From NCBI GenBank assembly GCA_022709465.1, contig JAKLIT010000004.1:1-25364 (forward strand): 25,364 nucleotides of DNA, written 5' to 3'. This document shows, piece after piece, positions 2,978 through 19,402 of this stretch. A program made the translations under genes and the position numbers. The stretch is from Candidatus Omnitrophota bacterium. GTDB lineage: Bacteria > Omnitrophota > Koll11 > Pluralincolimonadales > Pluralincolimonadaceae. Every line of letters starts with the position of its first letter. Positions within the stretch are counted from its first letter, which is position 1. The notes under the pieces were generated by a model. It ran no database searches and was not told the DNA's origin. It saw nothing but the letters and a program-made list of their open reading frames with translations.

Positions 2978-3464
2978 CGCAGTCAAGACGGATGCTGTTA
3001 AGATCGACGATGTAGTGGAAGCCGAAGTCATAAAAATAACGGATTTCGGCGCGTTCGTGAAGTTCGGAAGCGGCAAAAAGGGCCTCATCCATATCTCGCA
3101 GGTCTCCGACTCGTATGTCAAAAAAGTCGACGACCACCTGAAGATAGGCGATAAGGTCAAGGCGAAGATAATGAAGGTCTCGCCGGACGGCAAGATAGAC
3201 CTTACGCTCAAGAGCGGAGCCCCCAGGAAGGACGATTCGAACGGGCGCCAGCAGGGCGGGCAGAGGCCTTACAGGCCGGACCAGGGCGGCAACCGCAGGC
3301 CGGGTAACCGCGATACCAGCTTCCGCGAGAACATGCAATCGTCACCGGACGGGAAGTCCTTCAAGAACTCGTCTTTCGAGGATAAGTTCAAGCATTTCCT
3401 CGCAGAGAGCGGCGAACGCCAGTCAGACCTCAAAAAGCACATCGAAGAGAAACAGCCCAGGTAA
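2967..3464 (+). CDS. Single S1-domain RNA-binding protein
   Basis: The protein has 165 residues. Residues about 12-75 form one S1/OB-fold RNA-binding domain, with the typical core DFGAFVKFGSGKKGLIHISQ and, at its end, the strand GKIDLTLK. The rest is a hydrophilic tail rich in Gly, Arg, Gln, Asn and Pro (about 80-120), probably disordered, ending in a charged segment with KHFLAESGERQSDLKKHIEEK. The architecture matches the YabR/GSP13 family of small S1 proteins, which bind RNA or ribosomes. The exact role is unknown. Its start overlaps the septum gene by 11 bp, and it is the last gene of this operon. No clear intrinsic terminator follows it. Confidence 0.88.
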
Positions 3465-3481
3465 ACCGGTTATATTAGGCC

Positions 3482-3510
3482 TTGCTATTGCGCGCACGGT
3501 CTGTTATAAT
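3482..3510 (+). promoter_or_regulatory. Sigma70-type promoter of the tRNA-fMet gene
   Basis: TTGCTA (3482-3487) and a perfect TATAAT (3505-3510) are separated by 17 bp. Transcription would start near 3517, about 54 bases before the mature tRNA 5' end. Confidence 0.75.
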
Positions 3511-3514
3511 TTAG

Positions 3515-3535
3515 TTCCCCTTAGAAGAAGGGGAA
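3515..3535 (+). other. Stem-loop in the tRNA precursor leader
   Basis: TTCCCCTT (3515-3522) pairs perfectly with AAGGGGAA (3528-3535) across a 5-nt loop AGAAG. It begins at about the predicted transcription start and is not followed by a T-run, so it is not a terminator. It may protect the 5' end or guide processing; the role is unknown. Confidence 0.5.
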
Positions 3536-3606
3536 GTACCGCTCTTTATTAGCGCAGCCTTTATTACTACCGCGGGGTGGAGCAGCCTGGTAGCTCGCAA
3601 GGCTCA

Positions 3607-4128
3607 ATGGACACAAAACTCAAAGCAGATATTGCGGAATCAGCCGTAACCACTGAACTCCTGAAAAGGGGTTTCAGCGTGTTACATCCTGTCGGGGATC
3701 GACTTAGTTACGACCTGGCTGTCGACCTCGGGGGAAGGCTTCTGCGCATTCAGGTGAAGAGTGCTTGGTACGACGCGAACGCGAAATGTTATGTCGTGGA
3801 TGCGCGAAGGACCAAAACAAATCGCCGCAGGATGCTAAGAAAACACTACGGCGCCGATGATTTCGATTTCGCGATAATCTACCTTTCCGACAGGAACGCG
3901 TTTTACGTGATGCCTGTATCTATTTTCTGCGGATATGAAAGCACGATCACATTCGTGGAAGAAGACAAAAGACAGCGTAAGCCGCGGTCGGCGGATTGTA
4001 GAGAGCGTTGGGATTTATTGTCCGATGGGCTCCTCGGCCGGAAACGGCCGAAGGATAGTCTGTCAAATTCGGTGAAGCCCGAAAAAGGTAATACCGAGCC
4101 AAGCCTGTCGAAAGACAGGAAGGTGTAG
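3607..4128 (+). CDS. Intron-encoded PD-(D/E)XK homing endonuclease, I-Ssp6803I-like
   Basis: The protein has 173 residues from ATG 3607, two bases inside the intron. The frame is open further upstream through the tRNA, but a start there would translate tRNA sequence. A possible Shine-Dalgarno AAGG (3599-3602) lies in the tRNA anticodon stem, available only in unspliced RNA. A nuclease core is readable: Glu11 in a helix, Asp36 in SYDLAVDLGG, and the QVK strand with Gln49-x-Lys51. This is the PD-(D/E)XK restriction fold with Q in place of the D/E. A basic stretch (about 68-79, RTKTNRRRMLRK) and a second alpha/beta part (FDFAIIYLSD...FYVMPVS) follow. The known endonuclease of the Synechocystis tRNA-fMet intron is also of this fold and of similar size (about 150 residues). 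Residues from about 140 on are encoded by ribozyme core DNA, with the stop two bases before the P7 strand. The product should cut intronless tRNA-fMet genes to spread the intron. Confidence 0.85.
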   Translation: MDTKLKADIAESAVTTELLKRGFSVLHPVGDRLSYDLAVDLGGRLLRIQVKSAWYDANAKCYVVDARRTKTNRRRMLRKHYGADDFDFAIIYLSDRNAFYVMPVSIFCGYESTITFVEEDKRQRKPRSADCRERWDLLSDGLLGRKRPKDSLSNSVKPEKGNTEPSLSKDRKV

Positions 4129-4218
4129 AGACTAAACGGCAGATCCCGGATTTCCGGGAAAGATATAGTCCAGACTACGAACTCCCGAAAGGGAGGCGGC
4201 GAAAGCCGAAGTAGCACG
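4025..4218 (+). ncRNA. Group I ribozyme catalytic core
   Basis: Helices read from the sequence: P2 CGGCCG-GAAA-CGGCCG (4035-4050); P3 CTGTC (4060-4064) with GGCAG (4138-4142); P4 TCGGT (4069-4073) with ACCGA (4093-4097); P5 GCC/GGT (4077-4079, 4087-4089); P6 GCC/GGT (4098-4100, 4122-4124); P6a CCTGTC-GAAA-GACAGG (4104-4119); P7 GACTA (4130-4134) with TAGTC (4166-4170); P8 CCCGG-ATTT-CCGGG (4145-4158); a P9 domain with CTAC/GTAG (4175-4178, 4211-4214) enclosing two GAAA-capped hairpins (4182-4195 and 4197-4208). The Q, R and S consensus boxes are obvious (CCGAGCCAAGCC; GAGACTAAACGG; AAGATATAGTCC). Confidence 0.93.
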
Positions 4219-4267
4219 CATAACCTTGAGGCCAGAGGTTCAAATCCTCTCCCCGCTACCAATACAC

Positions 4268-4308
4268 AAGTGGGCGTTAACGTAATGTTAACGCCCACTT
4301 TGTTGTTT
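4268..4308 (+). terminator. Intrinsic terminator after tRNA-fMet
   Basis: A perfect 14-bp stem (4268-4281 with 4287-4300), loop GTAAT, is followed by TGTTGTTT. It lies seven bases after the encoded CCA. The stem begins AAGTGGGCG and has a T-rich 3' side, so it reads as a strong rho-independent terminator. Confidence 0.85.
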
Positions 4309-4391
4309 AGGCCAAAAAAATAAGAAAATAGTGGCAATTTTGTAGCCCCCATATCCGCCAAGAAACACGATCTCAAGGCTTAAAATACCTA

Positions 4392-4420
4392 TTGTTCACC
4401 TTCCGGGGAAGGCGTATAAT
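4392..4420 (+). promoter_or_regulatory. Promoter-like element with a palindromic spacer
   Basis: TTGTTC (4392-4397) and a perfect TATAAT (4415-4420) are 17 bp apart. The spacer contains the dyad CCTTCC-GG-GGAAGG (4399-4412). It points toward the cassette gene at 4491, with an untranslated leader of about 65 nt. The -35 match is weak and no regulator can be named. In an integron this would be the place of a cassette promoter. Confidence 0.5.
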
Positions 4421-4423
4421 TTA

Positions 4424-4482
4424 TGTGCCACAATCAACAAAGTAAAAAACAGGGGCACAGCCGCTGAGTTCAAACGTTAGGT
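4424..4482 (+). repeat. attC-like right half (first copy of 21-bp repeat)
   Basis: Bases 4460-4480 are identical to 5407-5427, the right arm of the attC-like site downstream. The copy ends in GTTAGGT (4476-4482), a perfect match to the integron core GTTRRRY. A short stem TGTGCC/GGCACA (4424-4429, 4454-4459) precedes it. No convincing matching left arm (RYYYAAC) is found; ACCTATT at 4387 is at best degenerate. It marks the left edge of a cassette and could be a decayed attC or an attI-like junction. Confidence 0.5.
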
Positions 4483-4490
4483 GAGAAAAA

Positions 4491-5348
4491 ATGAAAATGA
4501 TAACTGTAATAAAATATGCATTGGTGTGTATATTTTCGCTATCTATGAGCAATGCGAATGCTGCCGATGGGCCATTTTCAGAAACCTCGCTAATAGATGC
4601 TTTCGAAAATGGTCGCTCTTTGGTTATCGCTAAAATTGTTTCAGTCCAAAGCAAACAAGAACAATACGGCAAATTATACTATTATACAGTGAAGATTGTA
4701 CAGCCTGTAATTATGGGCGATTTATACGATAAGGATTTAGTGAAACAGGTGGAACTTTATGCGGGAGCGTCTTATGGCGACTCGCTGAAAATTGGAACTA
4801 TATATACTATATTTATTACAAAAGACACGCCAATGGCCTTCTCTTGGGCTAATAGGAATGATATATGGAAAATTAATCAGAAGAATAAGAAAGAAGTCGA
4901 TGCATTCATATCTAAAGCCAAACAAATATATGAAAAAACCTCAATTTATAAATTCCGTAACGCAGAAATCGGAAAGTCATATACGCCGCCAGATATTTCT
5001 GATGAATTGAAGAATATATGTAATAAGTTCAAGGACAGAGAAGGAGATCGAGCTAAGTTGGCGAAGGCTATTTACCAGTCAGATTTAGGTTCGCGTCCTG
5101 ATGAGTCAAAAATGGGGTCATCGGTCATAGAATATCTACCCCCTAAGGCGCTTCTCTCGCGAAGTCAGGTTTTACAGCTTATAGGTGAGCCGACTCTAAA
5201 ATTAGGCAGGACATATTATTGGTTCTGCGGTGTAGATGATACCGGTTCTCCCGAATATACAGGAATTCTAAAAACTACATTTGATCGTAATGAAAATCTG
5301 GTTAGATTAATGTACGGCTTAGATAAAATGATAAAATGGAAGAAATAA
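4491..5348 (+). CDS. Exported protein of unknown function (cassette gene)
   Basis: This 285-residue protein is not recognised. The N-terminus is a good Sec signal peptide: MKMITVIK, a hydrophobic core ALVCIFSLSMS, and a probable cut after NANA. The mature part opens with LVIAKIVSVQSK...YYYTVKIVQPVIMGD...VELYAGA, an alternating beta pattern like secreted OB-fold domains. The C-terminal half contains LLSRSQVLQLIGEPTLKLG...YYWFCG, reminiscent of small lipoproteins with a 'VLELLGEPT' motif, then a final beta-rich segment. The start ATG 4491 is preceded by AGGTGAG, which comes from the attC-like core itself. Codon use is far more A+T-rich than in the flanking metabolic genes. It sits alone between the two 21-bp repeats. 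Confidence 0.8.
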   Translation: MKMITVIKYALVCIFSLSMSNANAADGPFSETSLIDAFENGRSLVIAKIVSVQSKQEQYGKLYYYTVKIVQPVIMGDLYDKDLVKQVELYAGASYGDSLKIGTIYTIFITKDTPMAFSWANRNDIWKINQKNKKEVDAFISKAKQIYEKTSIYKFRNAEIGKSYTPPDISDELKNICNKFKDREGDRAKLAKAIYQSDLGSRPDESKMGSSVIEYLPPKALLSRSQVLQLIGEPTLKLGRTYYWFCGVDDTGSPEYTGILKTTFDRNENLVRLMYGLDKMIKWKK

Positions 5349-9280: not shown

Positions 9281-9331
9281 ATGTCCCTCGGACTGTCCTT
9301 AATTGACGTTGCGTCATTGGAGGCAAGATGA
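9281..9331 (+). CDS. Possible 16-residue leader peptide upstream of purB
   Basis: ATG 9281 opens a 16-codon frame (MSLGLSLIDVASLEAR) whose stop TGA overlaps the purB start as ATGA. It would translate across the purB ribosome site GGAGG (9319-9323) and across a hairpin TGACG-TTG-CGTCA (9304-9316). Its own ribosome site is weak (AGAAGAAA). It may couple or attenuate purB translation; the short length makes chance possible. Confidence 0.35.
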   Translation: MSLGLSLIDVASLEAR

Positions 9332-10620
9332 TCGAGAGGTATACCCTGCCCAGGATGGGCAAGATCTGGGAAGACCAGAACCGTTTCCAGCGCATGCTCG
9401 ACGTGGAGATAACCGCCTGTGAGGCATTCGCGAAGAAGAAACTCATACCAAAATCCGCCCTTTCCGAGATAAAGAAGAGGGCCCGCTTCGACGTAAACCG
9501 CATCAAAGAGATCGAAAAAGAGACAAAACACGATGTTATCGCCTTCATAAAGAGCATATCCGAGAACGTCGGGCCCGACGCGAAGTACATACACATGGGC
9601 CTGACCTCGAGCGACGTGCTCGATACCGGCCTCTCGCTGCAGATGCGCGACGCGGCCGACATCATCCTTGACGGCCTCAAGAGGTTCCTTATAGCGCTCG
9701 AGAGGAAAGCCAAAAAATACAAGAACACGCCGTGCGTCGGAAGGACCCACGGAGTGCACGCCGAACCGATGGCCTTCGGGCTTAAGTTCGCGCTGATCTA
9801 CGCCGAGACGCAGCGCAATATAGCGCGCATGAAGGCCGCGCGTGAGGCGATCAGCGTCGGAAAGCTCTCCGGAGCGGTCGGCACGTTCGCGAACGTCGAC
9901 CCGTGGGTCGAGGAGTACGTATGCAGGCGCCTCGGGCTCGAGCCGGCGCCGATATCGACACAGGTCATCCAGCGCGACAGGCACGCGCAGTTCCTTTCGA
10001 CGATAGCCATAATCGGCGGGACGCTCGAGAAGTTCGCTACCGAGGTCAGGGCCCTCCAGAGGACAGAGGTCCTCGAGGCGGAGGAACCGTTCACCGAGGG
10101 GCAGAAGGGTTCGTCGGCGATGCCGCACAAGCGCAACCCCGTCATCTGCGAGCGCATCGCGGGGCTCGCCAGGGTCCTGCGCGGTAACGCGCTCGCGTCG
10201 ATGGAGAATATCTCATTGTGGCACGAGAGGGACATCTCGCACTCGTCGGTAGAGCGTGTGATCCTGCCGGATTCGTGCATACTCATAGATTACATGCTCA
10301 ACCTCGCGACCGACGTCGCGATGCACATGGCCGTATACCCCGAGAGGATGATAGAGAACCTCGACAGGATGAAGGGCCTTGTCTTCTCCCAGAGGGTGCT
10401 TCTCGCGCTTATAGGCAAGGGTGTAACGAGGAACGAGGCGTACGACCTGGTCCAGCGCTGCGCGATGCGCGTCTGGAAGGAGAACGTGGAGTTCAGGTCC
10501 GCGCTGGCGGATGACATCGAGGTGACGAAGTATCTCGCGCAGGAAGAGATAGAGGCGTGCTTCGACCTCGGATATTACACCAAGAACGTGGACAAGATAT
10601 ATAAACGGTTAGGGCTATGA
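9328..10620 (+). CDS. purB: Adenylosuccinate lyase
   Basis: PurB removes fumarate from SAICAR (to AICAR) and from adenylosuccinate (to AMP). At 430 residues it has the usual length of the B. subtilis/Thermotoga type. The fumarase/aspartase superfamily signature GSSAMPHKRNP is intact with its mobile serine loop, as are HMGLTSSDVLDT (TSSD substrate loop) and the GRTHGVHAEP segment bearing the catalytic His. GGAGG (9319-9323) lies four bases before the ATG. It is the first gene of the purine operon, and its TGA overlaps purC as ATGA. Confidence 0.98.
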   Translation: MIERYTLPRMGKIWEDQNRFQRMLDVEITACEAFAKKKLIPKSALSEIKKRARFDVNRIKEIEKETKHDVIAFIKSISENVGPDAKYIHMGLTSSDVLDTGLSLQMRDAADIILDGLKRFLIALERKAKKYKNTPCVGRTHGVHAEPMAFGLKFALIYAETQRNIARMKAAREAISVGKLSGAVGTFANVDPWVEEYVCRRLGLEPAPISTQVIQRDRHAQFLSTIAIIGGTLEKFATEVRALQRTEVLEAEEPFTEGQKGSSAMPHKRNPVICERIAGLARVLRGNALASMENISLWHERDISHSSVERVILPDSCILIDYMLNLATDVAMHMAVYPERMIENLDRMKGLVFSQRVLLALIGKGVTRNEAYDLVQRCAMRVWKENVEFRSALADDIEVTKYLAQEEIEACFDLGYYTKNVDKIYKRLGL

Positions 10621-11522
10621 CAGAGAAGACAAAGGAACAGGTGATACTCGCCACCGAAGGCGTGCCGCTGAAATTCTTCAAGCGCGGCAAGGTAAGGGAC
10701 ATCTACGAATATGACGACAAGCTTCTGATAGTCGCGACGGACAGGATATCCTGCTTCGATGTCGTGCTGCAGGAGGGCATCCCGTTCAAGGGCAAGGTCC
10801 TGACGCAGATATCCGCGTTCTGGTTCTCGTTCCTGAAAGACCTCACGGAAAACCATATCGTGACTTTCGACATGGACTCCCTGCGCGGCAAGCTGGGGGA
10901 TTCCGCGGACATGCTGCGCGACCGCTCGATGCTCGTCAGGAAGACGCGTCCGTTACCGATAGAATGCGTCGTCAGGGGCTACCTCTCCGGCTCCGGCTGG
11001 AAGGAATACAAGGAGAACGGCGAGATCTGCGGGATCAAACTGCCGAAGGGCCTCAAGGAATCGGACCAGCTGCCCGAACCGCTCTTCACCCCGTCGACAA
11101 AAGAGGACGTAGGCCATGACATCAACATGACCGAGATCGGCGCGAGGAAGAAACTCGGCGACCGGCTTTTCGAGCTCGTGAAATGCAAGGCGATAGCCAT
11201 ATACAATAAAGCGGCGGCCTATGCCGATTCGAAAGGCATCATTATAGCCGATACGAAATTCGAGTTCGGCGTGACGGAAGAGGGCAAGACGATACTGATA
11301 GACGAGGTGCTTACGCCCGATTCGTCGAGGTTCTGGCCGAAGGAGAAGTATAAGCCGGGCGGGCCGCAGATGAGTTTCGACAAGCAGTTCGTGCGCGATT
11401 ACCTCGAAGGCCTGGATTGGTGTAAAGTGGCCCCGGCGCCTAACCTGCCGGAGGATATCATAAAAAAGACGAGCAAGAAATACCTCGAGGCGTTGAAGAA
11501 GCTCACAGGCAAGGAGATCTAA
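10617..11522 (+). CDS. purC: SAICAR synthase
   Basis: PurC joins CAIR with aspartate using ATP to make SAICAR. The protein has 301 residues, of the longer class also seen in yeast Ade1 and many bacteria. Signatures: KVRDIYEYDDKLLIVATDRIS (ATP-binding N-lobe), PIECVVRGYLSGSGWKEY, and LIDEVLTPDSSRFWP (Mg/nucleotide site). The start ATG overlaps the purB stop by four bases and the stop TAA directly abuts the GTG start of purL. Confidence 0.97.
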   Translation: MTEKTKEQVILATEGVPLKFFKRGKVRDIYEYDDKLLIVATDRISCFDVVLQEGIPFKGKVLTQISAFWFSFLKDLTENHIVTFDMDSLRGKLGDSADMLRDRSMLVRKTRPLPIECVVRGYLSGSGWKEYKENGEICGIKLPKGLKESDQLPEPLFTPSTKEDVGHDINMTEIGARKKLGDRLFELVKCKAIAIYNKAAAYADSKGIIIADTKFEFGVTEEGKTILIDEVLTPDSSRFWPKEKYKPGGPQMSFDKQFVRDYLEGLDWCKVAPAPNLPEDIIKKTSKKYLEALKKLTGKEI

Positions 11523-14411
11523 GTGCTCTGGCGCGTTGAAGTAAGCGGAAAAGACGGGGCGCAAGACCCCGGCATAAAGAAAGATATCGAGGACCTCGGA
11601 GTCAAGGGAGTAAATTCCGTCGAGGTAGTGCAGGTATATATCATCGAGGGGGATATCGGGCAGCAGGAGATCGGGAGGATATCCTCCGAACTGCTCGCGG
11701 ACCCGGTGACCCAGCGTTTTTCTTTCGGCAAGGGCCCCCTTAACGGCAAGGGCATCTCCGCGAAACGCGCCGTCATCGAAGTCACGTATAACGCCGGCGT
11801 AATGGATCCCGTCGAGGAGAGCGTCAGGAAAGGCATACTCGACCTCGGCATCGACGGTGTCGAGACGGTCAAGACCGCCAAGAAATACATCATCTCGGGG
11901 AAGGCCTCCGGAAAAGACCTAAAGACGATAAGCGAGAAACTGCTCTTCAACAAGGTCATACAGCATGTCGTATCTGGGCACGGTTCATACACCTCGAAGA
12001 ACCCCCCGAAATATGGATTCAAGCTCGTAACGGTAGCGATGCTCGGCGCGTCCGGCAGGGAGCTCGAGAGGATAAGCAGGGAAGGCCAGCTCTTCCTCGA
12101 CCTGGCCGAGATGCGCCGCATAAAAGAGTATTTCACGCGGCTCGGGCGCAACCCGACCGATATAGAGCTCGAGACGCTCGCGCAGACCTGGTCGGAACAC
12201 TGCGCCCACAAGACGTTCCGCGGCATGGTCGACTACGAGGCGGGCGGGAAGAAACGCCGCATAAAGAACCTGCTGAAAGAGACCGTGATGAAGGCGACCG
12301 CGGAGCTCAACAAGCCGTGGTGCGTATCGGTATTCAAGGACAACTCGGGCGTCATACGTTTCGACGAAAAGAACAATATATGTTTCAAAGTGGAGACGCA
12401 TAACCACCCGTCGGCGATAGAGCCGTACGGCGGGGCTAACACCGGCCTCGGCGGCGTGATACGCGACCCGCTCGGCACCGGCCTCGGCGCGAAACCCATT
12501 CTCAATACCGATATCTTCTGTTTCGGCGAGCCGGATTACCCGTTCTCCCGCCTGCCGAAAGGCGCACTGCACCCGAAGAGGGTCATGAAGGGTGTCGTCG
12601 CGGGCGTCAGGGATTACGGCAACAAGATGGGCATACCGACGGTAAACGGCGCGGTGCTCTTCGACAACAGGTATATCGGCAACCCGCTCGTCTACTGCGG
12701 CAACGTAGGGATAATGCCGAAGGATAAGTCATTCAAGGAAGTGGAGAGCGGCGACCTCGCGGTCGTCGTCGGGGGCAAGACAGGCCGTGACGGCATACAC
12801 GGCGCGACGTTCTCTTCCGGTGAACTGACCTCGGAATCGGAGCAGGTCTCCGCGCAGGCGGTGCAGATAGGCAACCCCATCGAAGAGAAGAAGATGGCCG
12901 ACTGCATCCTCAAAGCCCGCGATATGGGGCTCTATGACGCGATAACGGATTGCGGCGCGGGCGGCCTCTCTAGCGCGGTCGGCGAGATGGGAGAAAAGAC
13001 CGGTGCCATGATCGACCTCTCGAAGGTCCCGATCAAATACGGCGGGCTTACCTATACCGAGATATGGATATCCGAGGCGCAGGAGAGGATGGTCATCTCC
13101 GTACCGAAGAGCAAGGTGAAGAAACTGCTCGAGGTCTTCGAGGCGGAAGACGTCGAGGCGACGGTGATAGGCGAATTCACGAAAACGAAAAAACTCGAAT
13201 TATTTTACGGCGCCGAAAAGGTCTGCGACCTGGGCATGGATTTCCTGCACGGCGGGAACCCGAAGGAGGTCAGGAAGGCGAAATGGAAGGCGCCGAAATT
13301 CGCCGAACCGAAGTTCGCGTGCCCGAAGGACCTCACGCCTTCGCTGCTGGGCCTGCTCTCGGACTGGGATATCTGCAGTAAGGAATGGATAATCAGGCAG
13401 TACGACCACGAAGTGCAGGCGGGCTCGGCCGTCAAGCCGCTTGTAGGCGTGTGCAATGACGGGCCGTCCGACGCGGCGGTCGCGATACCCGTTCTCGGCT
13501 CGAAGAGGGGCGTCGTTATATCGAACGGCATCAACCCGCGCTACGGCGACATAGACCCGTACTGGATGGCGGCCTCGAATATCGACGAGGCGCTCAGGCA
13601 GATAACCGCCGTCGGAGGGGAGCTTAAGGAAGTCGCGATACTCGATAATTTCTGCTGGGGCGATACCGACCAGCCGCCGCAGCTCGGAAGTCTGGTAAGG
13701 GCTTCCCTCGGATGCTATGACGCGGCGAAAGCGTTCGGCGCGCCGTTCATCTCGGGAAAGGACAGCCTGCATAACGAATACATCGTAGGCAGCAGGAGGG
13801 TCTCGATACCGGGCACGCTGCTGATCTCCGCGATAAGCGTGACCGAAGACGTCACAAAATGCGTGACAATGGATCTCAAGGAGGCGGGGAGCCTGATATA
13901 TATAGTCGGCATGACGTTCGATGAGATGGGAGGTTCCCATTATTACGGCCTCAACGGCGCCGTCGGAAATTCCGTGCCGGCCGTCGACCTAAAACGCGCG
14001 CGGTCCGTAATGGAGAAGCTCAGCGCGGCGATAAGGTCCGGCATTGTCAGCGCGTGCCACGATTGCTCCGAAGGCGGCATAGGCGTTGCCGCGGCGGAGA
14101 TGGCTTTTGCCGGCGGCCTCGGGGCGGAGATATCGCTGAGCGACGTGCCCTTCAGGAACAGGTATGCCGCGCGCGGCGAGAAGCGCAGCGACAGCGTGCT
14201 CTTTTCGGAGTCGAACACGAGGTTCATAGCCGAGGTCGCGAAAGATAACCGCGAGGCGTTCGAGAAGGCGATGACAGGCGCCGCGATAGGCATGATAGGC
14301 AGGGTTATAGACCACAAGGATTTTGTGATATACGGGCTGGACGGCAAGGTCGCGGTGAGGTCGGATATAGACGAACTCAAGGAGGCATGGCAAGGTCCGC
14401 TGAAATGGTAG
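11523..14411 (+). CDS. purL: FGAM synthase, PurS-PurS-PurL fusion
   Basis: The 962-residue protein converts FGAR, ATP and glutamine-derived ammonia to FGAM. Start GTG 11523 follows the purC stop without a gap; AAGGAG lies just upstream. Residues about 1-80 and 81-165 each look like a PurS unit (RVEVSGKDGAQDPGIKKDIEDLG..., then AVIEVTYNAGVMDPVEESVRKGILDLG...; both with D-P and a V...K/V..Y.I.G strand). From about residue 170 it is a small-type PurL: TWSEHC (222-227), ETHNHPSAIEPYGGANTG (about 291-308), DCGAGGLSSAVGEMG and CHDCSEGGIGVAAAEM. Free-standing PurS dimers serve other bacteria, and the E. coli large PurL has a fused PurS-like N-domain plus a glutaminase. Here the glutaminase remains separate as PurQ, so the form is intermediate. 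Confidence 0.96.
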   Translation: MLWRVEVSGKDGAQDPGIKKDIEDLGVKGVNSVEVVQVYIIEGDIGQQEIGRISSELLADPVTQRFSFGKGPLNGKGISAKRAVIEVTYNAGVMDPVEESVRKGILDLGIDGVETVKTAKKYIISGKASGKDLKTISEKLLFNKVIQHVVSGHGSYTSKNPPKYGFKLVTVAMLGASGRELERISREGQLFLDLAEMRRIKEYFTRLGRNPTDIELETLAQTWSEHCAHKTFRGMVDYEAGGKKRRIKNLLKETVMKATAELNKPWCVSVFKDNSGVIRFDEKNNICFKVETHNHPSAIEPYGGANTGLGGVIRDPLGTGLGAKPILNTDIFCFGEPDYPFSRLPKGALHPKRVMKGVVAGVRDYGNKMGIPTVNGAVLFDNRYIGNPLVYCGNVGIMPKDKSFKEVESGDLAVVVGGKTGRDGIHGATFSSGELTSESEQVSAQAVQIGNPIEEKKMADCILKARDMGLYDAITDCGAGGLSSAVGEMGEKTGAMIDLSKVPIKYGGLTYTEIWISEAQERMVISVPKSKVKKLLEVFEAEDVEATVIGEFTKTKKLELFYGAEKVCDLGMDFLHGGNPKEVRKAKWKAPKFAEPKFACPKDLTPSLLGLLSDWDICSKEWIIRQYDHEVQAGSAVKPLVGVCNDGPSDAAVAIPVLGSKRGVVISNGINPRYGDIDPYWMAASNIDEALRQITAVGGELKEVAILDNFCWGDTDQPPQLGSLVRASLGCYDAAKAFGAPFISGKDSLHNEYIVGSRRVSIPGTLLISAISVTEDVTKCVTMDLKEAGSLIYIVGMTFDEMGGSHYYGLNGAVGNSVPAVDLKRARSVMEKLSAAIRSGIVSACHDCSEGGIGVAAAEMAFAGGLGAEISLSDVPFRNRYAARGEKRSDSVLFSESNTRFIAEVAKDNREAFEKAMTGAAIGMIGRVIDHKDFVIYGLDGKVAVRSDIDELKEAWQGPLKW

Positions 14412-15214
14412 CCATTAAGGGCAGGCCGAAGGTACTGGTATTGCGCGCCGCAGGGACGAACTGCGACGTCGAGACCGCGTTCGCGTTCGAACACGCGGGC
14501 GCGTCCGCGGAACAGGTCCATATAAACCGGCTCGTCTCCGGCGAGAAGAAGCTGCGCGATTACCACATTCTCGCGGTACCGGGCGGCTTCACCTACGGCG
14601 ACGATGTCGCGTCGGGGAAGATCCTCGCGAACGAGCTGAAGTACAAGCTGGCAGCCGACCTCGAGAAGTTCATCGACGCCGGAAAGCTTATAATAGGCAT
14701 CTGCAACGGTTTCCAGGTCCTCGTGAAGGCGGGACTGCTTCCGGGCAAGGGCGAGGGGGGCGAGCAACTCGAGGCGACCCTTACTACGAATGATACGGCC
14801 AGGTACGAGGACAGGTGGGTCTACCTGAGGATGGCCAAGAGCACTAACATGGAATCGCAGAACAGGTGCGTATGGACCCGCGGCCTCGACGAGTTGATAT
14901 ATATACCCGCGGCACACGGAGAGGGCAAGTTCGTCCCGAAGGATCAGGCGGTTCTCGGGAAATTATGGGCCAACGGGCAGGTTGTCTTCAGGTATGTCGA
15001 CTCGCGCGGGAAGCTCGCGGGTTTTCCGTGGAACCCGAACGGCTCGACAGATAACATCGCGGGAATATGCGATATAACGGGAAGGGTATTCGGCCTGATG
15101 CCGCATCCGGAAAGGCACTTGTTCTCGACTCAGCACCCCCGCTGGACGCGCGGGGAAGCGCAGCGCGAGGGCGATGGCGTCAGGATCTTCAGGAACGGGG
15201 TCAAGAGCGTCTAG
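14405..15214 (+). CDS. purQ: FGAM synthase glutaminase subunit
   Basis: PurQ is a class I glutamine amidotransferase that feeds ammonia to PurL. From ATG 14405 it has 269 residues: the N-terminal strand VLVLRAAGTNCD, the oxyanion loop GGFTYGDD, the nucleophile Cys100 in GICNGFQVL, the AHGEGKF segment and the catalytic PHPERH near the C-terminus. Start choice: ATG 14387 follows AAGGAGG by only one base, too close, while 14405 has AAGGT eight bases upstream. The alternative adds six residues. Either way it overlaps the purL end. It is longer than B. subtilis PurQ (about 227 residues) and closer to archaeal-type length. Confidence 0.95.
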   Translation: MVAIKGRPKVLVLRAAGTNCDVETAFAFEHAGASAEQVHINRLVSGEKKLRDYHILAVPGGFTYGDDVASGKILANELKYKLAADLEKFIDAGKLIIGICNGFQVLVKAGLLPGKGEGGEQLEATLTTNDTARYEDRWVYLRMAKSTNMESQNRCVWTRGLDELIYIPAAHGEGKFVPKDQAVLGKLWANGQVVFRYVDSRGKLAGFPWNPNGSTDNIAGICDITGRVFGLMPHPERHLFSTQHPRWTRGEAQREGDGVRIFRNGVKSV

Positions 15215-15222
15215 AGGTAAAC

Positions 15223-16623
15223 ATGGACGGAAGGATCAAAGAATACTGCGGGCTGTTCGGAGTATACGGCCATAAGGAAGCAGCGCGGCTTACCTATCTC
15301 GGCCTGTATGCCCTGCAGCACCGCGGCGAGGAATCGGCCGGAATAGCGTCTTTCGACGGTGAAACGACGCATACCCATAAAGGGATGGGCCTGGTCGCCG
15401 ATGTATTCAATGAAGGCGTATTAAGCGAGTTGAAAGGCCACGTTGCGATAGGCCATGTAAGGTATTCCACGACAGGTTCCACGACATTGAAGAACGCACA
15501 GCCCGTCGTAGTGGATTATTCGCGCGGAACGATAGCGGTCGGGCATAACGGCAACCTCGTCAACGGCTCGCGGCTTCGCGACGAGCTCGAGGCGCGCGGT
15601 TCTATATTCCAGACGACGCTCGACTCCGAGATAATCATACACCTCATGGCAAGGCCCGAGCACAAGAACCTTGAGGAAGGGCTCGTATACACGCTGAAGC
15701 AGCTTAAGGGTGCGTTCTCCCTCGTAATAATGAAAGAGGACATGCTCGTCGGCGTGCGCGACCCGCACGGCTGGAGGCCCCTGTGCCTCGGCAAATTAGG
15801 CGACGCGTATGTGCTCGCGAGCGAGACGACAGCGCTCGACCTCATAGAGGCGGAGTTCATACGCGAACTCGAGCCGGGAGAGGTGCTCTATATAAGCAAG
15901 AAGGGCCTGCGCTCGACGAAGCCGTTCGGCGAGAGTAAAAAGGTCGCGCACTGCATATTCGAGCATATATATTTCGCGAGGCCCGATTCGTATATTTTCG
16001 GCGAGTCTGTGCACCTTGTCAGGCAGAGGCTGGGGCATGTGCTCGCGAAGGAGCACCCCGTCGACGCGGACCTGATCGTACCCGTCCCGGATTCGGGGAC
16101 GCCCGCGGCGCTCGGACTCTCGCATGAGTCGGGCATCGAGCTCGAGATGGGCATCATCCGCAACCACTATGTAGGCAGGACGTTCATCCAGCCGCTGCAG
16201 CATATCAGGGATTTCAGCGTGAAGATAAAACTGAACCCGATAAAGGCGCTGTTGAAAGACAAGAGGGTCATCGTCGTCGACGATTCGATAGTGCGCGGCA
16301 CGACGTCGAAGGCGAGGATAAAGAAACTCTATGACGCCGGCGCGAAGGAAGTCCACATGAGGATATCATGCCCGCCGATCAGGTTCCCGTGCTTCTACGG
16401 CATAGATTTCCCGACGAAGAAGGAACTGATCGCGGCGACACATACGGTGGAAGAGATACGCAAGTACCTCGGAGTCACGACCCTCGGGTACCTTTCGGTC
16501 GAGGGGCTGTTAAGCTGCGTCTCGTGCCCGAAGGACTACTGCACGGCGTGCTTTACCGGCGATTACCCGGTGCCGTTCGGCGGAGAGGCAAACAAGTTCG
16601 CTACTGAGCATAAAGGATATTAA
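15223..16623 (+). CDS. purF: Amidophosphoribosyltransferase, iron-sulfur type
   Basis: PurF starts purine synthesis by making phosphoribosylamine from PRPP and glutamine. From ATG 15223 (AGAGGT upstream) it has 466 residues; the frame continues open upstream only by chance through purQ. An eight-residue propeptide (MDGRIKEY) precedes the N-terminal nucleophile Cys9, so self-cleavage is expected. Cys244, Cys390, Cys440 and Cys443 occupy the places of the B. subtilis [4Fe-4S] ligands; the first two match B. subtilis mature numbering (236, 382) after propeptide removal. The PRPP loop is VIVVDDSIVRGTT (349-361). The cluster makes the B. subtilis enzyme oxygen-sensitive, consistent with an anaerobic host. 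Confidence 0.97.
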   Translation: MDGRIKEYCGLFGVYGHKEAARLTYLGLYALQHRGEESAGIASFDGETTHTHKGMGLVADVFNEGVLSELKGHVAIGHVRYSTTGSTTLKNAQPVVVDYSRGTIAVGHNGNLVNGSRLRDELEARGSIFQTTLDSEIIIHLMARPEHKNLEEGLVYTLKQLKGAFSLVIMKEDMLVGVRDPHGWRPLCLGKLGDAYVLASETTALDLIEAEFIRELEPGEVLYISKKGLRSTKPFGESKKVAHCIFEHIYFARPDSYIFGESVHLVRQRLGHVLAKEHPVDADLIVPVPDSGTPAALGLSHESGIELEMGIIRNHYVGRTFIQPLQHIRDFSVKIKLNPIKALLKDKRVIVVDDSIVRGTTSKARIKKLYDAGAKEVHMRISCPPIRFPCFYGIDFPTKKELIAATHTVEEIRKYLGVTTLGYLSVEGLLSCVSCPKDYCTACFTGDYPVPFGGEANKFATEHKGY

Positions 16624-16624
16624 A

Positions 16625-17632
16625 ATGGGGCTTACCTACAAGAAGGCCGGTGTCGATATCATTGAAGCGAGCCGTTTCGTCGGCGCGATAACAAAGTACA
16701 CGCGCAGTACGGCGCGAAAAGGGGCGGACTGCAAGCTCGGCGGGTTCGGGGGGCTCTTCGACCTGAAGGCCTCCGGATACAGGGACCCCGTGCTTGTGTC
16801 GTCCACCGACGGCGTCGGCACGAAACTCAAGATCGCCTTCCTTGCGGGAAAGCATGACACCGTAGGCATAGACATGGTCGCGATGAACGTTAACGACGTG
16901 CTGACGACCGGCGCGGAGCCGCTGATCTTCCTCGATTATATCGCCACGGGAAAGATAGACAGGAAGGTCCTCGCGGATGTAGTGAAGGGAATAGCCGAAG
17001 GGTGCAGGCAGGCCGGCTGCGCGCTTGTCGGCGGAGAGACCGCGGAGATGCCGTCGTTCTATAAGCCGGGTGAATACGACCTCGCGGGTTTCTGCGTCGG
17101 GGCGGCCGAGAGGAAGAATATAGTCGACAACTCCAGGATGGAGGAAGGGGATATCGCGGTCGGGCTGGCCTCGAGCGGACCGCATTCGAACGGTTATTCG
17201 CTGATCAGGAAAGTGTTTTCAGCGGCCGAGCAGAAGAAGCTCGCGAAGGAGCTGCTCGCTCCGACGAGAATATACGTCAAGCCCGTGCTCGAGCTCAGGA
17301 GATTAGTGAAAGTAAAAGGCATCGCGCATATAACCGGCGGCGCGTTCTTCGAGAAACTGCCGCGCATAGTCCCCGACGGCAAGACGCTCGTCATAGAGAA
17401 GGGCTCGTGGGCGGTCCCGGAGATATTCAGGAAGATACAGAAGAAGGGCCGCGTCGATGAGGTCGAGATGTTCCGCACCTTCAACATGGGCCTCGGCATG
17501 GTCTTGGTCATGCCGCCGCGGGATTTCAGCAAGTCGAAAAAAATATTAAGCAGATGGGGAATAGATTCGTGGATAGTCGGCTCGGTTAACAAGGGGGGGA
17601 GCCACAAGGTAAAGATAATATGCGGGTTCTAG
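16625..17632 (+). CDS. purM: AIR synthetase (phosphoribosylformylglycinamidine cyclo-ligase)
   Basis: PurM closes the imidazole ring, FGAM + ATP to AIR. The 335-residue length is typical. Recognisable blocks are VSSTDGVGTKLKIA (ATP-binding strand with catalytic DG), GIDMVAMNVNDVLTTGAEPLIFLDY, ALVGGETAEMPSFY, GLASSGPHSNGYSLIR and HITGGAFFEKLPR. The start is one base after the purF stop, with AAAGGAT upstream. Its end overlaps purD by 13 bp. Confidence 0.97.
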   Translation: MGLTYKKAGVDIIEASRFVGAITKYTRSTARKGADCKLGGFGGLFDLKASGYRDPVLVSSTDGVGTKLKIAFLAGKHDTVGIDMVAMNVNDVLTTGAEPLIFLDYIATGKIDRKVLADVVKGIAEGCRQAGCALVGGETAEMPSFYKPGEYDLAGFCVGAAERKNIVDNSRMEEGDIAVGLASSGPHSNGYSLIRKVFSAAEQKKLAKELLAPTRIYVKPVLELRRLVKVKGIAHITGGAFFEKLPRIVPDGKTLVIEKGSWAVPEIFRKIQKKGRVDEVEMFRTFNMGLGMVLVMPPRDFSKSKKILSRWGIDSWIVGSVNKGGSHKVKIICGF

Positions 17633-18891
17633 TTATAGGTTCGGGCGGCAGGGAACACGCGCTGGCCTGGAAGATAAAACAGTCGACACTCGTCGATAAG
17701 GTCTATTGCGCGCCGGGTAACGGCGGGATCTCGTCGATAGCCGAGTGCGTCGACATCAAGCCGGACGATATCACGGGCCTTATCGGGTTCGCGACGAGGA
17801 ACAAGATAGACCTGACCGTCGTCGGGCCGGAGGCGCCGCTCGCGCTCGGGATAGTCGACAGGTTTTGCGTGAACGGGCTCAGGGTCTTCGGCCCGTCTAA
17901 GGAAGCCGCGAAGATAGAAGCAAGCAAGGCCTTCATGAAACAGCTCATGAAGAAATACAACATACCTACCGCGGATTTCGAGATATTCGAGGACAGCGCC
18001 CGCGCGAAGAAATATATCGACGGGCTTAAACGGGATTTCGTGGTCAAGGCGGACGGCCTCGCGGCCGGCAAGGGAGTGGTCGTATGCTCGTCGAAGGAGC
18101 AGGGCATTTCCGCAGTGGAATCGATGATGGAACGGCGCGATTTCAGGAACGCCGGGAACAGGATAATAATCGAGGAATGCCTCGAGGGCGAAGAAGTCTC
18201 GATGCTCGTTATAACCGACGGAAAAGATTGCGTGCCGCTCGCGTCGGCACAGGACCACAAGAGGATATTCGACGGGGACAACGGCCCGAATACGGGCGGC
18301 ATGGGTGCCTATTCGCCCGCGCCGGTGGCGACGCCGGAACTTACGGATTCCGTGATGAAGGATATAATCAGGCCGACGATCGCCGCGATGGGCAAGGAGA
18401 ACGCCCGCTATACAGGAGTGTTATACGCCGGCATAATGGTGACCGACGAAGGGCCCAAAGTCCTTGAGTTCAACTGTAGGTTCGGCGATCCCGAAACGCA
18501 GGTGATACTCCCGCGGCTGAAAAGCGACATTATTGAGCTTATCGAGGCATCGATTGACGACGAGATAGACATGGCCAAGCCGGAATGGGACGAGAGGCCT
18601 TGCGTGTCGGTCGTTCTCTCGTCTGGAGGGTACCCCGGGGAATACGAGACCGGCTTCGATATAGAGGGCCTCGACGCGCTCGACAGGGCAAAGGACGTAT
18701 ACGTCTTCCATGCCGGCACAAAGGCCGTCGACGGCAAAACCGTCACCGCGGGAGGGCGCGTACTGAACGTCACCGCCCTCGGTTCGGATATCAGGGACGC
18801 GATAGACAGGTGTTATAACGCGGTCAACCTCATAGAGTTCGAGGGGATGCATTTCAGAAGGGATATAGGGTTCAGGGCGCTGAAGAGGTGA
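17620..18891 (+). CDS. purD: Phosphoribosylamine-glycine ligase (GARS)
   Basis: PurD joins phosphoribosylamine and glycine using ATP to give GAR. The 423-residue protein has the expected N-domain (VLVIGSGGREHALAWK), an ATP-grasp fold with VVKADGLAAGKGVVVC, the CLEGEEVSMLVITDG strand, the DHKRIFDGDNGPNTGGMGAYSP loop, and the metal/substrate block VLEFNCRFGDPETQVILPRL. It overlaps purM by 13 bp. The glycine it needs can come from GlyA, encoded downstream in the same gene run. Confidence 0.97.
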   Translation: MRVLVIGSGGREHALAWKIKQSTLVDKVYCAPGNGGISSIAECVDIKPDDITGLIGFATRNKIDLTVVGPEAPLALGIVDRFCVNGLRVFGPSKEAAKIEASKAFMKQLMKKYNIPTADFEIFEDSARAKKYIDGLKRDFVVKADGLAAGKGVVVCSSKEQGISAVESMMERRDFRNAGNRIIIEECLEGEEVSMLVITDGKDCVPLASAQDHKRIFDGDNGPNTGGMGAYSPAPVATPELTDSVMKDIIRPTIAAMGKENARYTGVLYAGIMVTDEGPKVLEFNCRFGDPETQVILPRLKSDIIELIEASIDDEIDMAKPEWDERPCVSVVLSSGGYPGEYETGFDIEGLDALDRAKDVYVFHAGTKAVDGKTVTAGGRVLNVTALGSDIRDAIDRCYNAVNLIEFEGMHFRRDIGFRALKR

Positions 18892-18907
18892 ACAAAAGGA
18901 GTTTCGC

Positions 18908-19402
18908 ATGGCAAAACCAAAGATAGCCGTGATACTGGGGTCGGATTCCGACTTGTCCACGATGGAAGAGGGCTTGAAGGTCCTCAAGGACTTCAAGGTC
19001 CCGTTCGACCTTAAGATAATGTCCGCGCACAGGAGCCCCGCGCTCGTGCACGCGTTCGCGAAGACCGCGGAGAAAGAAGGCATACACGTGATAATAGCCG
19101 CCGCGGGCGGCGCGGCGCACCTTGCGGGGGTCATCGCCTCGATGACCCGCCTTCCGGTGATCGGCGTCCCGATGGAGACGAGCAGCCTCAACGGGATGGA
19201 TTCGCTCTTCTCGACGGTGCAAATGCCTTACGGCGTGCCGGTTGCGACGATGGCGATAGGTAAATCGGGCGCGCGCAACGCTTCGATATTCGCGCTCCAG
19301 ATACTCGCGCTCGAAGACAAGAAGGTCGCCGGCGAGCTCAACGCTTTCAAGAAGAGGCTTGAGGCCGACGTGATAGCGAAGAATAAAAAATTAAGCTTAT
19401 GA
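18908..19402 (+). CDS. purE: N5-CAIR mutase, class I
   Basis: PurE rearranges N5-CAIR to CAIR. The 164-residue protein shows the class I pattern: GSDSD (11-15), SAHRSPA with catalytic His41, AAAGGAAHLAGV, and GVPMETSSLNGMDSLFSTVQMPYGVPV. Class I enzymes normally depend on PurK to supply N5-CAIR; purK is not in the window and is expected elsewhere. AAGGAG stands seven bases before the ATG after a 16-bp gap from purD, the largest gap inside the operon. The stop overlaps the next start as ATGA. Confidence 0.96.
   Translation: MAKPKIAVILGSDSDLSTMEEGLKVLKDFKVPFDLKIMSAHRSPALVHAFAKTAEKEGIHVIIAAAGGAAHLAGVIASMTRLPVIGVPMETSSLNGMDSLFSTVQMPYGVPVATMAIGKSGARNASIFALQILALEDKKVAGELNAFKKRLEADVIAKNKKLSL

Follow-up and report, generated by a model that had tools for sequence, protein, structure and literature searches.

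The tRNA-fMet gene of Synechocystis PCC 6803 carries a group I intron of 655 nt, described together with the 150 aa endonuclease I-Ssp6803I (PMC1995217). tRNA-fMet introns of Gloeobacter and Synechocystis have also been noted with tRNAscan-SE 2.0, in a study reporting 36 genomes without a detected fMet or Ile2 gene owing to introns of this type (PMC8450103). Those cases resemble ours in that a group I intron in the anticodon loop hides the tRNA-fMet gene from a tRNA finder; the part of that paper dealing with tRNA-fMet names cyanobacteria, not Omnitrophota. In a further related system, collaborative homing, a free-standing endonuclease acts with an ORF-less intron; it has been described from two phages, and the same source, where it treats bacterial introns, sees little evidence that they move horizontally among bacterial species (PMC3984707). 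Within the open-licence literature, we found no paper that combined 'Omnitrophica' with 'group I intron', and one that combined 'Omnitrophota' with it, the intron term occurring only in a reference title. A 2025 preprint, to judge by its title, concerns group I introns in the tRNA genes of uncultured bacteria and a novel insertion site. The element described here is of a known kind, but its lineage is new.

In the window, that is, the whole 25 364 nt stretch of DNA that was analysed, ARAGORN found zero tRNAs when run without introns; when introns were permitted, it reported tRNA-Met(cat) with a 614 nt intron and the insertion 'aggct-Intron-cataa'. The joined exons score as a 77 nt tRNA-Met, and by eye they carry the marks of an initiator: a CAU anticodon, a C1xU72 mismatch (non-Watson–Crick 1-72), A11-U24 and an encoded CCA. 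The anticodon stem AGG/CCU has two G-C pairs and one A-U pair rather than the classical three G-C pairs, which we read as a lineage variant because Omnitrophota genes that are uninterrupted show the same AAGGCT form. Upstream lies a promoter-like site (two such sites in 3400–4500, against a mean of 1.1 in shuffles), and promoter, exons, intron and terminator-like hairpin look like one transcription unit. The features are as follows.

3482..3510, + strand: sigma-70-like promoter TTGCTA-17-TATAAT, the second hexamer preceded by TG (10/12 matches)
3571..3604, + strand: tRNA-fMet 5′ exon, nt 1–33 (ARAGORN and reading of the sequence)
3601..3613, + strand: 5′ strand of P1 and its extension, comprising exon GGCU, intron CA and the start region of the ORF, with A3607 unpaired
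3605..4218, + strand: group I intron of 614 nt, starting after U33 (3604) and ending in G (4218) (Rfam, ARAGORN)
3607..4128, + strand: I-Ssp6803I-type PD-(D/E)XK homing endonuclease ORF, 173 aa (PF11645, 2ost)
4019..4031, + strand: 3′ strand of the P1 extension, comprising the Leu138-Ser139 codons (4019–4023), then the guide GGGCU (4027–4031)
4034..4051, + strand: P2 hairpin, inside the ORF tail (Rfam match; helix name by eye)
4059..4064, + strand: 5′ strand of P3, pairing with 4138–4143 (Rfam, RNAalifold; helix name by eye)
4069..4119, + strand: P4-P5-P6/P6a (Rfam, RNAalifold; helix names by eye)
4130..4170, + strand: P7 (4130–4134 with 4166–4170) around the 3′ strand of P3 and P8 (4145–4158) (helix names by eye)
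4175..4214, + strand: P9 region with a CTAC/GTAG closing helix, P9 (4182–4195) and P9.1 (4197–4208) (helix names by eye)
4219..4261, + strand: tRNA-fMet 3′ exon, nt 34–76, CCA encoded (ARAGORN and reading of the sequence)
4268..4300, + strand: terminator-like hairpin of 15 pairs with a T-rich tail (sequence scan)

The Rfam group I model (Intron_gpI, RF00028) matches 4007–4197 with 58.8 bits (E 9e-13), above its gathering score of 50. The last U of the 5′ exon pairs with a guide G (U3604.G4028), and the terminal base of the intron is G4218. The group I helices were recovered by RNAalifold on 22 ORF-less introns of the same site, with two-sided changes in 37 of 65 pairs. In one RNAalifold consensus the guide is matched to part of P7, since a P1 would have crossed the anticodon stem selected by the program; P1 was therefore assessed by direct pairing. 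An intron of this build would be expected to splice and so give tRNA-fMet.

Only 2 nt of intron precede the ORF. Its nuclease part covers approximately residues 1–138, while the tail translates the guide and P2–P6 and stops just before P7. We considered the 173 aa tail as a conserved protein segment and rejected the idea as unnecessary, since many listed homologues are about 145 aa long and the tail is translated intron core. The match to PF11645 (PDDEXK_5) reaches 147.1 bits against a cut-off of 26.1, and the product matches PDB 2ost (E 7.6e-44), which is listed as 'Putative endonuclease' and which we take to be I-Ssp6803I of Synechocystis. In an alignment of 13 proteins, the window protein is 54% identical to I-Ssp6803I. 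The catalytic residues of this type are presumably E11, D36, Q49 and K51; the last three are invariant among the 13 proteins and the window protein has E11, the 2ost chain as given showing Q at position 11. The search gave 871 homologues; among the best 120, those with a named organism are Omnitrophota except for one from Deltaproteobacteria, and several are annotated 'group I intron-associated PD-(D/E)XK endonuclease'. By analogy with I-Ssp6803I, the putative endonuclease would cut the anticodon region of intron-less tRNA-fMet genes in the manner of homing, a prediction to which its link with that site in 75 of 80 related loci lends indirect support. The first-pass annotation had claimed exons forming a full tRNA-fMet(CAU), a 614 nt group I intron between U33 and C34 with readable P2–P9 and a terminal G, and a PD-(D/E)XK ORF of the I-Ssp6803I type, and the model matches, helices and intron boundaries given above bear out each of these.

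Genomes scanned at one per species yielded 82 related loci, of which 80 were kept. In 75 of these, the tRNA-fMet that encloses or adjoins the ORF is broken at U33|C34, so the split tRNA is not a matter of chance; both halves were found in 73, one of the others running off its contig (L036) and one having no 3′ half that we could find (L009). Of the other five loci, two have the ORF next to a tRNA-fMet that is intact (L077, L078), two have a split gene some kilobases from the ORF (L018, L029) and one has only a 3′ fragment of the tRNA before it (L040). Where the ORF is inside the intron it begins after 2–9 nt in the clade of the window (37 cases) and, by our own count, after 16–32 nt in the other clade. 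In the downstream layout, an ORF-less intron of 193–358 nt (29 cases) is accompanied by a free-standing ORF beyond the tRNA. In 19 of the 24 loci measured, this ORF lies no more than 105 nt from the tRNA end, and by eye a terminator-like hairpin comes before it. A search for a duplicated piece of exon or intron beyond these free-standing ORFs, which might have explained their exit, gave only two short self-matches (13 and 18 bases), nothing convincing. One endonuclease match, in G069 (L139), sits in a 532 aa open frame, possibly a fusion or a mere open frame. A different ORF was observed in L082 (G113), an Omnitrophota locus with a 935 nt intron at the same tRNA-fMet site, where a LAGLIDADG_2 ORF (57.6 bits) is placed by eye after the 5′ strand of P7; here a second family of endonucleases seems to have invaded the same intron independently.

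The two clades come from an endonuclease tree of 91 rows (the fragments L077–L080 left out), which has few columns and a bootstrap that had not settled. It has two starred sides, and the side of the window lies apart from the one where cyanobacteria stand with about ten further named phyla; it holds Omnitrophota and unnamed rows, one Bacteroidota, two Melainabacteria and one Margulisbacteria. Both sides hold inside and downstream forms, with 15 changes of layout in all. A tree of the intron core (97 rows) gives the same division, the other side being supported at 100/99, with L140 and, weakly, L017 and L021 as exceptions that fall with the opposite side. The nearest row to the window in this tree is L145, an ORF-less Omnitrophota intron. 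The host is an Omnitrophota bacterium: the five best matches of the neighbouring enolase are 95–98% identical, three of them named Omnitrophota or Omnitrophica, and Omnitrophota loci share the gene order eno-ftsB(-S1)-tRNA-fMet whether or not they carry the intron, which places the intron in an orthologous gene. Elsewhere in the window, at 9328–19402, a long run of ORFs resembles purine biosynthesis genes by eye (such as purB, purC, purL, purQ, purF, purM, purD, purE).

From these trees we favour the view that intron and endonuclease form a long-kept lineage centred on Omnitrophota, with some transfer between phyla, given the Bacteroidota, Melainabacteria and Margulisbacteria rows within the clade of the window. 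The earlier statement that the flanking genes are not cyanobacterial and belong to an uncultured phylum agrees with the enolase matches and the synteny. Its alternative of an intron either transferred or independently kept can now be narrowed: the long-kept lineage, with some interphylum transfer, agrees with the trees, and a fresh import from cyanobacteria does not, the window falling outside the cyanobacteria-holding clade in both of them.

Among the introns inspected, the guide GGGC follows the ORF on its 3′ side, and the ORF thus fills the loop of P1. In the clade of the window, the first codons of the ORF (AUGGAYACA) pair with its own Leu138-Ser139 codons beside the internal guide sequence. 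In the window itself, a two-strand fold gives a P1 of 12 bp with one mismatch (−17.0 kcal/mol), and the start codon lies inside the helix. This clade has no leader before the ORF; in the other clade, an intron leader pairs with the last codons of the ORF, over 8–11 bp in 11 of the 14 introns measured and over 4–6 bp in L039, L060 and L068, the measurement covering 14 of the 20 introns of that clade (L064 and five others fall outside it). The comparison with Synechocystis is direct in the case of the Synechocystis salina locus L074, which has a 655 nt intron, the same insertion site and an ORF in the P1 loop. The Synechocystis intron shares its tRNA and its endonuclease family with the window, but differs in host phylum, in clade and in the position of the ORF, which starts after 20 nt of intron rather than 2; the 3′ codons of L074 have a non-coding leader as their partner, whereas in the window the codons of the ORF itself extend P1. 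From the comparison with relatives, the nuclease gene seems to use both its first and its last codons as part of an RNA helix required for splicing as well. We found no report of such dual use of codons in the open-licence literature, although the original Synechocystis papers may draw a P1 extension. The part played by the ORF ends in P1, and the fact that the endonuclease of relatives can lie outside the intron, are the two points that go beyond the first-pass annotation.

Codon 2 (GAC/GAT) and Leu138 (TTG/TTA) each have a synonymous third base. In the 37 ORFs inside introns of the clade of the window, the combinations were C:G 19, T:A 12, T:G 5, T:T 1 and C:A 0 (Fisher 4.9e-6, ancestry ignored), and in 14 ORFs not inside an intron they were C:A 4, C:G 3, T:A 2, T:G 2 and others 3; the two synonymous positions show covariation in ORFs that lie inside the intron and none in those outside it. 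Over the five pairs of the helix, 180 of 185 pair cells are formed in the inside ORFs against 40 of 70 in the non-inside ORFs of this clade, and all five pairs are present in 34/37 against 1/14. The single non-inside ORF with a full helix is that of L018, kilobases from the split gene, and the inside ORFs that fail to form the 5 bp helix are those of L009, L036 and L043. None of 2000 shuffles reached the inside pair count (maximum 178), and none of 500 swaps of tails among species matched the observed energy, the mean duplex energy being −8.4 inside and −2.1 for non-inside ORFs (p 2e-7). The pairing was first spotted by eye and then tested on the same sequences.

Shared ancestry reduces the independent evidence. 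On the best tree there are 13 independent pairs, 9–11 in the same direction and 0 in the opposite one, for which a sign test taken without regard to branch support gives about 0.002 at the median; well-supported branches alone leave two or three independent pairs, too few for significance. Among 528 pairs of synonymous columns, codon 2:Leu138 ranks second (0.75; mean 0.02, SD 0.20), and its correlation is 0.74 after removal of GC3, so that GC3 does not explain the covariation. The top-ranked pair, at 0.80, joins alignment columns 9 and 87 (0-based), which have no known pairing; its correlation could reflect chance, ancestry or another RNA contact.

Partly deleted ORFs point in the same direction. 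In L144, L146 and L149, all in the clade of the window, the middle of the ORF has been lost by different deletions and both ends kept, the kept ends folding into a hairpin that closes P1; in the other clade, the partly deleted ORFs of L079 and L080 likewise keep the P1 extension. Partial deletions that keep both ends could also simply be recent. In L147 and L148, the ORF has gone with both of its ends and a short loop stands in its place, the core of L148 being close to that of the ORF-bearing L114 in the intron tree; the ends of the ORF are therefore unneeded once the ORF is gone.

To view the element across the phylum, we searched 285 Omnitrophota genomes. The 5′ half of the tRNA was matched in 224 and an uninterrupted match was found in 162, leaving 62, of which 49 were examined. 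The gene is split with both exons seen in 45 of these, and split but running off the contig in G211 and G230; G184 ends too soon to tell, and G232 (L154) has an uninterrupted initiator-like tRNA with CATCACC replacing CATAACC at the anticodon loop. Intron carriers among the 224 genomes thus number at least 45 and at most 61. Two matches to the 5′ half were noticed in four of the 224 (G067, G221, G230 and G284), only G230 being without an intact copy. A strong match to the endonuclease (E 1.2e-60 or lower) was found in 31 of the 285 genomes and only a weak match in 24. These 24 of 55 matching genomes have E values from 5e-4 to 1e-14; G148 and G216 hold remnants of the ORF in split tRNAs, and most of the other weak matches may be remote PDDEXK relatives.

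When 50 host genomes of the relatives were searched for the 5′ half, 45 matched, each exactly once, a count that comes from a pattern search of draft genomes and can miss variant tRNAs. One of the single matches (G047) is the intact gene of L078, and the coordinates of the other matching places were compared with those of the split loci for some only. By analogy with these relatives, the split gene of the window would be the only initiator tRNA gene of its host. The view that the interrupted gene is essential is strengthened accordingly in the relatives, in which no genome of the matching 45 revealed a second initiator gene.

Seven viral contigs carry relatives of the endonuclease. In six of them (the IMG/VR relatives L159–L164), a tRNA-Met without an intron lies at or just after the end of the ORF, overlapping it in five, and in L163 and L164 it is within a tRNA array; an intron-split tRNA-fMet was seen in none of the seven viral loci. 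A DnaB-like helicase is encoded on both of the viral contigs tested (n=2) and an anti-repressor on one, and PHROGs holds a family of unknown function that matches the endonuclease. In a quicker tree that included six viral-contig rows, these fell outside both clades with weak support (70). A phage or plasmid vector was considered and set aside: phage records gave one phage only (two records, 28.5%), plasmids gave one 53-residue match, and a search of phages for a close DNA match of the window gave none. Collaborative homing offers a parallel, in that the ORF of some relatives stands beside an ORF-less intron of the same tRNA gene; it is known from two phages, whereas here it would concern bacterial tRNA genes of four phyla. 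L027, L035 and L051 have this layout and the window, with its ORF inside the intron, does not.

We consider it very probable that the locus is a mobile intron of the I-Ssp6803I type in the initiator tRNA gene, in which ORF codons close P1 and homing is followed by later decay of the ORF. The anatomy, site, clade and helix come from computation; the steps that would follow from them are these. In the folded pre-tRNA, exon GGCU would pair with the guide GGGCU, and since the ORF fills the P1 loop, P1 would be held by the pairing of the first codons of the ORF with its Leu138-Ser139 codons; splicing would then yield tRNA-fMet. The endonuclease would cut intron-less anticodon regions and repair would copy the intron in, and once targets are filled the ORF would decay, partial deletions keeping the paired ends and complete ones leaving a short P1 loop. 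In the boldest step, the buried start codon may delay translation until after splicing or limit it to nascent RNA. A more far-reaching version, which we offer tentatively and think rather less likely to be right than wrong, treats the ORF as a removable 'P1 cassette', whose first and last codons close the substrate helix and lock the start codon, and which has repeatedly moved into and out of the intron. With the start codon locked in the helix, translation would be limited to RNA that has not yet folded or to the intron once excised, which would be a near-leaderless message, G-CA-AUG. The only initiator tRNA would then be spliced with priority over the parasite's own expression, and the free-standing phage and bacterial copies would be intermediates of entry and exit.

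One challenge to the very probable reading concerns the helix, as the ORF might merely occupy an unstructured P1 loop and its codon covariation reflect composition or shared ancestry. The scarcity of strongly supported independent pairs, the one codon pair that correlates more strongly (0.80 against 0.75) and the ability of L148 to manage without the ORF ends all fit such a loop. Nevertheless, we judge it improbable: the correlation survives the removal of GC3, ORFs of the same clade that lie outside introns contrast with those inside, Ser139 is TCC or TCT in 33/37 inside ORFs against 1/14 non-inside ORFs, and a helix of this kind also forms in the other clade, there from a non-coding leader. 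Retention of the ORF as a splicing helper (maturase) rather than a homing endonuclease would suit its position within an essential gene, and intron proteins may stabilize intron RNA (PMC3984707). That reading is highly improbable, however, given ORF-less introns at the same site that keep a covarying core, invariant D36, Q49 and K51, and ORFs found outside introns and in viral contigs where no intron was seen.

We give very little credence to a dead split pseudogene with a working initiator tRNA elsewhere. Our view of the host is of one contig stretch, and a second copy could lie beyond it, but the exons fold as tRNA-Met, the core matches the family model, promoter- and terminator-like sites are in place, and the matching genomes of relatives have exactly one copy in 45 of 45 cases. 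Recent transfer of a Synechocystis-type intron from cyanobacteria into Omnitrophota would account for the shared tRNA, site and endonuclease family, yet it deserves scarcely any credence: the window is outside the Cyanobacteriota-holding clade in both trees, its ORF belongs to the group that starts after 2–9 nt of intron rather than 16–32 nt, the highest endonuclease identity (82%) is to another Omnitrophota, and among the rows used no cyanobacterial intron is nested with the window.

Omnitrophota annotations probably often go without an initiator tRNA, because the finder run without introns missed that of the window and at least 45 of the 224 genomes have a split gene. At one site in one essential gene, these loci offer a natural series of the states proposed for the rise and death of a mobile intron: an intact tRNA with a free endonuclease (viral contigs, L077 and L078), an ORF-less intron with a neighbouring endonuclease, an endonuclease inside P1, and a decayed endonuclease. 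They also offer a case in which selection of codons for RNA structure can be tested.
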